From Actinomycetes bacterium (GTDB taxonomy: Bacteria > Actinomycetota > Thermoleophilia > Solirubrobacterales > Solirubrobacteraceae), in contig JAJYHG010000251.1 in assembly GCA_021784895.1 (NCBI GenBank), positions 1 through 64,000 of the forward strand: DNA of 64,000 bases, given 5' to 3'. The translations under genes and the position numbers were made by a program. Below are positions 28,164-31,268 of this stretch, one piece after another. Positions within the stretch are counted from its first letter, which is position 1; every line of letters begins with the position of its first letter. The notes beneath the pieces were generated by a model. The model searched no databases, was not told the DNA's origin, and saw nothing but the letters and a program-made list of their open reading frames with translations.

Positions 28164-28602
28164 GCGCGCGGCGGCCGCAGCACCCCGGCCGCCGGCGGAG
28201 CTACGAGACGACCTGGAGCAGCTGTTTCGCGCCGGGCCGCCGCTGACCGGGCAGCAGCAGATCGGACGGCGACCAACAACGACCGAGGATCTCGCAGGCC
28301 GGTTGCCGTGCGGTGAGGTCGAGCGCACGCCGCTGCTCTGCTGTTCAGTTTGCTCACAAACGCACGGCGATCTTGGTGACAGATCGAGCAAACCAGCGCC
28401 GGGCGAGCCAGTTCGCTCGCTTGAGCTGGCCAGCAGCACCAGTGACCGGCTGCACCACTAGCCAGCTCATCCCCCTACCTGCGCGCCGGGAGGCTTAGAG
28501 ACCGATGCTCAGCAGCCCGCCGGGCCAAGCAAGCGGCACTCGGGCGAGCTCCCCGCCCTCCTTGACTGCTCCGCCTCGCAACGCCGCGGCCGCCCATGAT
28601 CG

Positions 28603-28634
28603 CCTCAGCCTCACCCTCAGCCTCACCCTCAGCC
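28603..28634. repeat. Short tandem repeat, 12-mer CCTCAGCCTCAC x about 2.7
   Basis: CCTCAGCCTCACCCTCAGCCTCACCCTCAGCC. Confidence 0.85.
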
Positions 28635-28640
28635 GGTCGA

Positions 28641-28739
28641 AACCGACAAACTGGGCACAACAGCGGCAGTTTGTTACACACGGCCCCTGAACCAGCTCGT
28701 TTTCGACAAACTGCGGACAAGCGGCACAGTTTGTCGGTT
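28641..28739. repeat. Nested inverted-repeat element: two 30-nt hairpin units inside a 13-bp outer inverted repeat
   Basis: Outer arms AACCGACAAACTG (28641..28653) / CAGTTTGTCGGTT (28727..28739); inner CAGTTTGT (28667..28674) and ACAAACTG (28706..28713). Confidence 0.85.
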
Positions 28740-28943
28740 CAAGCCGGTTGGCGCACGCGCGCCTCGCCGAGCGGCAGCATGAGCCGCAGCCCGCAGCAAC
28801 ACCAGGGCGCAGCAGCACCAGCTCCCGCCCCCGCAGGGCCAGCCAGAGCTCGATCCGGTTATCACGGGTCGAACCGAGGTCGACCGTGTCGACGCGCGGC
28901 GGGCGGCCAGACTCCGAGGATGGGTCCGTCGCGCTCGCGCACG

Positions 28944-31268
28944 TCAACCAATCGTGTAGCCAAGGGTCGCGTACGCCCTCTGCCGCTTGGCGAACATGCG
29001 CCGCAGTACCGGCACGGCGTTGTCGACGTAGTCGATGATGCGGACTTCGCGCTTGGCGTCGTGGTGACGGTGCAGCCGGCCCGCGTATTGGGTCATCGTG
29101 CCCTTCCACGCGATCGGCATCGCGAGCACGAGCGTGTCAAGACGCGGATCGTCGAATCCCTCGCCGATGTAGCGGCCCGTGGCGAGCACCACACGGGGTT
29201 GCGATGCGGTCAACAGCTCATCTGCTCGCCGCCGGGCACGCTTGCCGATGCTGCCGTGGAGAACTGCGACTCGATCGGTGTGGGCGGTGATCAGCTCGGT
29301 CAAGACGTCGAGGTGGTCGCGGCGCTCGGTCAGGACGAGCGGGTAGCGCCCTTCAGCAAGTTCGGCGAGCACGTCAGCGGCAATCCGTCCGGTCCGGTCG
29401 CGGTCAGCTGCCACAGCGCTCAGCACCTCCTGTATGCCCGGCTCCGGTGGCAGCGCCGTGACGTCAAACGGCGGCTCCCTGACGAGCAGGACGCGCCTCG
29501 CCGCCGTTTCGGCCTGGGTGGTCGCTGTGATCGTGTGCCGGACCGGCCCGCACTGCATCGTGATGATCGGGTGGTGGCCGTCACGGCGCTCGGGAGTCGC
29601 GGTCAGGCCGGTCACCAGGCGCGCCCGCAGCTCACGCAGCGCGCGCTCTGCAGTGAAGGCCGGGACGTGATGGCATTCGTCGACCACCACGTGTCCGTAG
29701 CGCGCGAGCTCGCTTGGCTCGCGCCGAGCGAGCGACTGGACCATCACGACGTCGATACCGCTGGTTCCTGGTTTGTCGATGCTCGTGCCGACCGAGCCGG
29801 GGTCGACGTCGAGGAACTCTCTGAGTCGGCCGACCCACTGCTCAAGGAGCGGCCGGCGGTGAACGACAATCAGCGTCGACCGTGCCCGGGCCGCGATCAG
29901 CGCCGCCGCAACGACCGTCTTGCCCGCGCCTGGAGGCGCGACCAGCACGCCGATGTCGTCTCTTGCGAGCGCCGTGACCGCCGCGTGCTGGTGCTCGGAC
30001 AGGACTCCGGTGAACGCAGCGCTGATCTCGTCGCCGTCGCTGCGCAGGTCGTTGACGCTGGTGGCGACCCCGTACGCCTCCAGCTCGCCGACGGCACGGC
30101 CGAGGCATCCTCGTGGCAGCAGCAGGTGTGTCGCAGTCTGTTCGTGGCAGGAGACAACTCTCGGCGTGTTGTGGGTCGGGAGCCGGGCACGTTCGCGCTC
30201 GTGGAACATCGGGTTAGCGAACATGGCCGTTCGGACCAGACGGTCCCGCAACGGCGGTGCTAGATCCGGCAAAGGGATCTGGACACGCCCACCCAGGGTG
30301 ACCTGCACTTCGCTTGGCGCGAGCGCACCGGGTGACAGGGGTAGCGCCTGTGTCCTGCTGCACGCGGCGGAGCGCAGGCCAAGAGCCCCGCCAGCGCGGT
30401 CCGCCTCGTCCGCGATCTGGACCGCACGATCAGCAGTGAGACGCTCCACGCCGGCGAGGTAGGCCCACTGGTCGGGGTAGGGCTCGAGCTCGCCATCGAG
30501 AAAAACGGTGCATCCCGCGCCACGACGCTGACGCTGAAGCGGCAGCGCGATGAGGTTGCCAAGACCACCGGCGGGCATCGTGTCCTGGCTGGGGAAGAGG
30601 CGGTCATACGAGCTCATCGCGATCGCTCGTCGTGACATCGCGCGCGTGAGCAGCAGGGACCCAACGGACCGCGCGACATGCGCCGGGACAGGCTTGGAGA
30701 ACAAGACCCACAGATGCGCGCCATCGCCAGAACGCGAGCGCTCGATCAGAACGGGGATGCCAAGTTCTTGCGCACTTGCGCGCAGCGCGGAGACATCTTG
30801 TCGCCAGGCGTCGCCGTCGAGATCGATCGCGACCAGCCAGCAGGTTTCGTCGGTCAGGAGCGGGTAGATCCCGATCGTCTGCCGGCCCTCGAGGTGCCGG
30901 CGCAGCTCGATGGATGTCAATGCCACGAACTGTCTGCTCGCACACTCGGCGCACTTGACCTTCGGCTTATGGCACACGCCCGTCCGCCACTCGTTCGAGC
31001 AGCGCGGCGCCCACCCCGAGCGGCCAGGAGATCTTGTGCTCTCCCAGCGCGTCGCGAACACGTCATCCCGCCCGCGGAACAACAGCTGGAACAGCGCGAC
31101 TCGCCCCTCTGCGGTGGCGATATCCGGCGCGCCCGCCGCCGACCTGATCGCTGCGATCTGCCGTGCGAGCGTCGCTCGCTCCTGATCGAGCCCGTTCAGG
31201 CGTGCTTGCGCCTGCTCCAGGTCGAGAAGCACCATCATCAGCCAGATGGTTCCGGACACCGCGGACAT
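28944..31268 (-). CDS. TOTE-type archaeo-eukaryotic primase domain fused to SF2 DEAD/DEAH helicase
   Basis: Primase part: GVCHKPKVKCAEC, IYPLLTDETCWLVAIDLDGDAW, SRSGDGAHLWVLFSKPV, YDRLFPSQDTMPAGGLGNLIALPLQ; helicase part: APPGAGKTVVAAALI, VVDECHH, GLTATPERRDGHH, YAGRLHRHHDAKREVRIIDYVD. Confidence 0.92.
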   Translation of the reverse strand: MSAVSGTIWLMMVLLDLEQAQARLNGLDQERATLARQIAAIRSAAGAPDIATAEGRVALFQLLFRGRDDVFATRWESTRSPGRSGWAPRCSNEWRTGVCHKPKVKCAECASRQFVALTSIELRRHLEGRQTIGIYPLLTDETCWLVAIDLDGDAWRQDVSALRASAQELGIPVLIERSRSGDGAHLWVLFSKPVPAHVARSVGSLLLTRAMSRRAIAMSSYDRLFPSQDTMPAGGLGNLIALPLQRQRRGAGCTVFLDGELEPYPDQWAYLAGVERLTADRAVQIADEADRAGGALGLRSAACSRTQALPLSPGALAPSEVQVTLGGRVQIPLPDLAPPLRDRLVRTAMFANPMFHERERARLPTHNTPRVVSCHEQTATHLLLPRGCLGRAVGELEAYGVATSVNDLRSDGDEISAAFTGVLSEHQHAAVTALARDDIGVLVAPPGAGKTVVAAALIAARARSTLIVVHRRPLLEQWVGRLREFLDVDPGSVGTSIDKPGTSGIDVVMVQSLARREPSELARYGHVVVDECHHVPAFTAERALRELRARLVTGLTATPERRDGHHPIITMQCGPVRHTITATTQAETAARRVLLVREPPFDVTALPPEPGIQEVLSAVAADRDRTGRIAADVLAELAEGRYPLVLTERRDHLDVLTELITAHTDRVAVLHGSIGKRARRRADELLTASQPRVVLATGRYIGEGFDDPRLDTLVLAMPIAWKGTMTQYAGRLHRHHDAKREVRIIDYVDNAVPVLRRMFAKRQRAYATLGYTIG

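Follow-up and report, generated by a model that had tools for sequence, protein, structure and literature searches.

Introduction

Proteins of the AbiEi family are autorepressors that bind inverted repeats (PMC3985639, PMC7319586). AbiEi itself binds two 23-bp inverted repeats in its own promoter (PMC3985639). The operator of Rv2827c, an AbiEi-family antitoxin of M. tuberculosis, consists of four 23-bp repeats with a gap of 13 bp within the pairs and 4 bp between them (PMC7319586). All four repeats were bound in EMSA, the outermost, IR1 and IR4, more tightly than the inner ones (PMC7319586). Long recognition sites are also known for the EDxHD homing endonuclease I-Bth0305I (PDB 3r3p), the target of which measures nearly 60 bp and is bound by a dimer (PMC3943268). 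Among dispersed palindromes, REPIN/RAYT systems (PMC3116915) are built from small palindromes that occur between genes as inverted doublets and can adopt a long hairpin or a clover fold. A dedicated DNA enzyme is encoded next to one of the copies, and the words are genome-specific and match the local enzyme gene. Imperfect intergenic palindromes of about 120 bp are also found as ERIC/IRU and other MITE-like elements. ERIC has one conserved sequence, and to our knowledge no enzyme partner of it is known.

The palindrome described here was found in a stretch of 64,000 nucleotides, referred to as the window. It belongs to a family of dispersed palindromes of constant length with compensating arms, which has a fixed association with one clade of genes for AbiEi-EDxHD proteins, and in which gene-side and dispersed copies match in a genome-specific manner. 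No paper linking DUF559/AbiEi proteins with dispersed palindromes was found in the literature.

Results

Anatomy of the palindrome

The element is a four-armed imperfect palindrome of 118 nt at 28632-28749. The covariance model R2 assigned it 94.9 bits (E 3.5e-24), this copy being a member of the R2 training set, and a sequence-only profile matched it as well (E 9.6e-25). Its + orientation was assigned from the asymmetric centre. An earlier sequence-only reading had recognized the repeats correctly and had given them an extent of 99 bp, which is too short, as the outer stem of the 118-nt unit is 78% complementary and extends past the 13 bp claimed. Two ACAAACTG-N13-CAGTTTGT hairpin units, with 60 bp from start to start, were present where that reading had placed them (28646-28674 and 28706-28734), and the ACAAACTG/CAGTTTGT pairs recurred in both, so the arm words are shared as described. 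The enclosing perfect 13-bp inverted repeat is formed by AACCGACAAACTG (28641-28653) and CAGTTTGTCGGTT (28727-28739). The paired motif of ACAAACTG and CAGTTTGT occurred twice in the window against 0.00 expected from shuffles.

On the + strand, the element begins with the left outer arm (box 1, 28632-28653), which ends in ACAAACTG and pairs with 28727-28748 in the R2 outer stem. It is followed by spacer 1 (28654-28666), the left inner arm starting with CAGTTTGT (box 2, 28667-28689), the right inner arm ending in ACAAACTG (box 3, 28691-28713), spacer 2 (28714-28726), and the right outer arm starting with CAGTTTGT (box 4, 28727-28748). Boxes 2 and 3 form the R2 inner stem, and their inner edges are approximate. 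Both spacers are 13 nt long, unpaired, and variable. At its minimum free energy, the region adopts the long hairpin (z -3.9 relative to dinucleotide shuffles), and the competing folds that had been suggested, local hairpins and a long outer stem, are both possible.

A second, decayed copy with the word GAGCAAACTG lies on the - strand at 28312-28430 (R2 33.5 bits, E 1.2e-6), where the match with the sequence-only profile was weak. It is located about 200 bp from the main copy, and a similarly close pair (about 220 bp) occurs in contig C176 of genome G005.

Conserved structure

The structure underlying R2 was derived from an alignment of 43 copies from eight genomes. The long hairpin comprises 43 pairs, with 74.5% of the cells paired compared to 61.7% after shuffling and 32-38% when partners were slid. 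Compensatory substitutions, which the sequence-only reading had named as a check, were identified in 39 of the 43 pairs, while the arm sequences themselves differ between species. An alternative with two local hairpins pairs 72.5% of the cells and thus scores nearly as high as the long hairpin, because all four arms usually carry one word. As the sole structure, local hairpins were rejected, since the outer stem keeps its pairing past position 11, where local hairpins stop, and since inner and outer words differ in G012 and G025, where by eye only the long stem fits.

Of 83 copies, 56 measured 118 nt and 76 fell within 117-119 nt. The outer arms span 22 nt and are more conserved than the inner arms of about 23 nt, and the centre mostly spans 5 nt. 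Spacers 1 and 2 were 13 nt long in 74 and 76 of the 83 copies, respectively, with a G+C content of 78-80% (78% for spacer 1) and poor conservation. Pairing between the two spacers reached 7.2 of 13 positions against 7.0 expected. Spacers acting as guides were considered and discarded, as their match to the flanks was no better than that of swapped controls. Three copies are orthologous between G012 and G020, and in these 28 of 270 arm positions had changed compared to 135 of 817 in spacers, centre, and flanks (P = 0.014), a comparison drawn from a small sample in which one of the three copies does not follow the effect.

Copies in the genome and the genus

The own genome (G000) comprises 2.8 Mb in 287 contigs and is 90% complete, and most of the genomes compared are drafts as well. 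A search of its contigs returned 15 exact units with the order arm, 13 nt, inverted arm, about 31 nt, arm, 13 nt, inverted arm, the arms starting at 0, 21, 60, and 81. With R1, a sequence-only profile derived from ten copies, the number rose to about 20 loci, among them diverged subfamilies and two derivatives of half size. R1 also matched elements with different arm words in genomes of the same genus. Across the genus, R2 matched the element in 19 of 28 genomes (E <= 0.01; hits counted on both strands). The best-scoring R2 copies include the training set, and the weakest hits may be unrelated palindromes, since the model rewards any long hairpin of this geometry. Further copies had thus been rightly anticipated. 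The absence of conserved structure and of copies in close relatives had been named beforehand as grounds for rejecting the element, and the outcome was the opposite, with both present.

Outside the genus, exact patterns and one DNA query were used. The exact words of the own genome were absent from 231 other genomes of the order, and an exact-pattern scan of 85,462 genomes, from which the own genome was left out, yielded no match. A single match in a viral contig was dismissed as chance.

Dispersed copies occupy tandem, convergent, and divergent intergenic positions between unrelated genes. Neighbours in the own genome encode an FGGY kinase, an Indigoidine_A-type protein, an acyl-CoA dehydrogenase, a short-chain dehydrogenase, leucyl-tRNA synthetase, and DNA polymerase III gamma/tau. 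Some copies are orthologous between species, and species-specific arm words were found at orthologous positions. Integron attC sites were considered and rejected, as some ends read AAC/GTT but by eye lack the RYYYAAC...GTTRRRY context, and the copies stand singly between chromosomal genes.

The half-size derivatives (C243:24797-24855 and C143:13654-13703 in G000) retain one arm pair, as if the centre had been deleted. Four contigs of G000, the pairs C71/C158 and C24/C9, end within a copy, and beyond it the two contigs of a pair have about 50 bp of flank in common (99% identity). These shared flanks may be repeat-caused assembly breaks, strain variants, or duplications.

Recognition as DNA or RNA

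G.U and A.C mismatches were equally frequent when the orientation was taken from the sequence-only model (59 vs 55 in the outer and 53 vs 45 in the inner stem), so neither strand is favoured. Both strands also fold alike, with means of -59.6 and -59.4 kcal/mol. In the R2-fitted alignment, G.U exceeded A.C (126 vs 81 outer, 121 vs 103 inner), an excess that was given little weight because R2 picks the strand and rewards G.U. No match for the element was found in Rfam. A structured RNA, such as a regulatory hairpin, a guide RNA, or a terminator, would agree with the strong compensatory evolution and the stable folds. It is nonetheless highly improbable given the parity of G.U and A.C, strands that fold equally well, spacers that match neither one another nor the flanks, and the lack of an Rfam match, and on the same observations the guide or ncRNA suggested by the sequence-only reading is unsupported in a strand-specific form. 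Compensatory change without strand bias makes the selection look DNA-level. Recognition as DNA, or as a hairpin on either strand, is supported, while selection on a single RNA strand is unsupported.

An AbiEi-nuclease family as probable partner

In two groups of orthologous copies, the element was located at the start of genes of one protein family, in which Pfam identified AbiEi_4, DUF559, and MTES_1575. A profile built from eight such proteins (A4) detected the family in every one of the 28 genus genomes, with 1-14 paralogues each. No specific function for AbiEi-DUF559/MTES_1575 fusions emerged from the family libraries searched, and no homologue of the nuclease was found in plasmids and phages.

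Scanning 50 loci of the nuclease family with R2 identified 14 with an element that ends 15-18 nt before the conserved domain. These are G000 C71, G004 C15, G005 C337, G006 C189, C260, and C11, G012, G013 C55, G015 C111, G020 C340, G024 C89 and C34, G025 C174, and G026 C58. In G023 C295, the element stands 27 nt before the domain start. Fourteen of the 15 element-bearing genes fall into one clade of 15 proteins. Other paralogues (e.g., in G009, G018, G019, G027, G008, and G026 C80) carry strong hairpins of unrelated sequence at the same place (z below -3), which were lacking in coding-sequence controls.

Long palindromes of very different sequence were also seen upstream of the domain in the AbiEi-nuclease paralogues L256, L257, L258, L260, L267, and L290. 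The word type ACATAAGC occurred among dispersed R2 hits as well as before nuclease genes of other genomes (L164 in G018, L165 in G022, L281 in G023, and L288 in G007).

In 14 genes of the main clade, no stop codon interrupts the reading frame across the element, and 13 of these have an in-frame start (ATG in 10) located 47-53 codons upstream of the domain and immediately ahead of the element. As these conserved starts precede the element, the site may lie inside the coding sequence, unlike the operator of Rv2827c. Translation of the element in main-clade genes is likely, although another frame is also often open.

The partner protein is predicted to be an AbiEi-antitoxin fold fused to an EDxHD homing-endonuclease/Vsr fold. 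For the protein of the own genome, an AlphaFold model based on an alignment of 48 sequences reached a pLDDT of 94.9. Foldseek matched the first 200 or so residues to the AbiEi antitoxin 6y8q (E 1.5e-5) and the remainder to I-Bth0305I 3r3p (TM-score by target 0.72-0.82) and Vsr 1cw0. Residues E207, D234, E245, D247, H252, E259, and D261 of the nuclease part show little or no variation among the 48 proteins.

Matching of gene-side and dispersed copies

Gene-side elements resembled the dispersed copies of the same genome, with a mean top-3 stem identity of 0.729 compared to 0.585 (maximum 0.637) for shuffled genome labels. As this permutation ignores the relatedness among copies, it indicates genome-specific families and does not yield a strict probability. 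Most of the dispersed copies in G006 match the element of C260 (0.66-0.81), while one clearly matches that of C189 (0.66 vs 0.48). No matching dispersed copy was found among those fetched for the second gene-side element of G024 (C34).

The neighbouring primase-helicase

A gene for an AEP-TOTE primase with a DEAD/ResIII helicase (Pfam) lies next to the element at 28944-31268 on the - strand, and the sequence-only reading had considered an att- or origin-like site for this primase. AEP-TOTE exceeded the cut-off in only three of 28 genus genomes (G000, G006, and G002), while the element is present in 19. With this differing phyletic distribution, the gene is not the partner of the element and stands outside the system, its rarity in the genus probably reflecting patchy acquisition.

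Discussion

We consider it fairly probable that the element is the four-box site of an AbiEi-EDxHD nuclease, with an operator beside the gene of the nuclease and dispersed copies spread by it. Our confidence is high for the binding site and its partner gene, while spread by the nuclease is about as likely as not. The anatomy of the element, its family, and the association with the gene were established computationally, while binding, cleavage, and mobility are inferred in the following scheme. The AbiEi winged-helix part would bind the arms, one protein per arm, and the four boxes of about 22 bp, paired as 22-13-23 and mirrored around a short centre, form the predicted binding site. The gene-side copy would serve as an autoregulatory operator, as for AbiEi and Rv2827c, and the other copies, about 20 per genome and including that of the window, would be dispersed copies of this operator. 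Judging by its fold, the nuclease may cut or nick its sites, and repair or insertion from another copy may then spread and homogenize them. Such spread and homogenization would let arm words and protein specificity co-diverge by species. The action of the nuclease on its sites is suggested by the fold and by the concerted change of words at orthologous places.

Of the guesses made by the sequence-only reading, a protein-binding array came closest, since the geometry is that of the four-repeat operator of Rv2827c. The layout of 22-13-~23-~5-~23-13-22 compares with 23-13-23-4-23-13-23, both amount to about 120-130 bp in total, and both adjoin a gene for a protein with an AbiEi fold, which holds for the gene-side copies and not for the dispersed ones. 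In contrast to Rv2827c, the AbiEi fold carries a nuclease here and is not paired with a nucleotidyltransferase toxin, and the element sits in front of the conserved domain and probably downstream of the start codon, with about 20 more copies across the chromosome. With I-Bth0305I, the partner protein shares the fold of its C-terminal nuclease. It differs in being encoded outside an intron or intein and in having an AbiEi fold as its recognition part, and its candidate site is multi-copy in its own genome. All features named above for REPIN/RAYT systems recur here, from the dispersed intergenic doublets and their folds to the copy beside an enzyme gene and the genome-specific words. However, the enzyme is an AbiEi-EDxHD nuclease and not a Y1/HUH transposase, copies are counted in tens while REPINs occur in hundreds, and a Y1 gene was not found in element-rich genomes. 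The comparison suggests an analogue of REPIN/RAYT, not described before, that uses an unrelated enzyme. A mobile, homing-like system, in which the four-box operator of the nuclease is itself the mobile unit and operator-like sites are cut so that repair copies the operator in, is put forward tentatively, as possible rather than probable.

The main rival is a pure regulon, in which an AbiEi-like transcription factor would bind dispersed operators at its target genes, kept by regulatory selection, and the nuclease domain would serve defence or repair. A plain regulator with some 20 operators explains the binding-site part without mobility, the AbiEi family has known autorepressors on inverted repeats, and the geometry matches the Rv2827c operator. 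It would also agree with the better conservation of arms than of spacers and flanks in orthologous copies, and with copies located 60-170 bp before gene starts. We regard this regulon as unlikely, however, because several copies lie between convergent genes (the window, G000 C27, and G012 C1:515567) or just past a stop codon, the neighbours in the own genome have no obvious common theme, and coordinated replacement of words at about 20 sites is hard to achieve by point selection alone.

Transposition by another enzyme was weighed in two forms. One is an ordinary non-autonomous MITE- or ERIC-like repeat moved by some other transposase, its copy at the nuclease gene being an old insertion recruited as operator. 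The sequence-only reading had raised a MITE-like element, and half of that suggestion stood. The copies are short, intergenic, dispersed palindromes with terminal inverted repeats, their outer arms having genome-specific ends such as AACCGGCT...AGCCGGTT, and half-size derivatives exist (C243 and C143). No target-site duplication was visible by eye at the ends of 40 copies. Unlike ERIC, the present family has arms that vary together within each species, and it is linked to a candidate enzyme. This origin is made improbable by the unrelated elements or hairpins found at the same place before many paralogous nuclease genes, by the resemblance of gene-side and dispersed copies within genomes, and by the geometry of an AbiEi operator. 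The other form, REPINs proper mobilized by a Y1 tyrosine transposase (RAYT), would share the inverted doublet of small palindromes that folds into a hairpin, and Y1_Tnp proteins are present in the own genome. It is contradicted by the phyletic pattern and can hardly be expected, as Y1_Tnp was not found in the element-rich G005, G006, and G013, and no element adjoins the Y1 genes of the own genome, one of which lies beside TnpB. IS200/IS605-type Y1 transposase genes or fragments were observed in contigs C279, C64, and C143 of G000.

REPs and REPINs are the chief example known so far of dispersed palindromes in bacteria with a dedicated DNA enzyme of their own, and they raise the question of how such populations persist over long periods. 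Finding a REPIN-like design with a second, unrelated enzyme family would show that such a design has arisen independently, and an enzyme that joins a homing-type nuclease to an AbiEi fold reading the DNA would suggest a concrete mechanism of cutting and converting. Such a second family would also point to a role for the AbiEi-DUF559/MTES_1575 fusions that are present in all 28 genomes of the genus. If the mobile, homing-like reading is true, a homing-type nuclease would take the place of a transposase in driving dispersed palindromes, and regulator, operator, and repeat population would form a single evolving system, selfish or domesticated.
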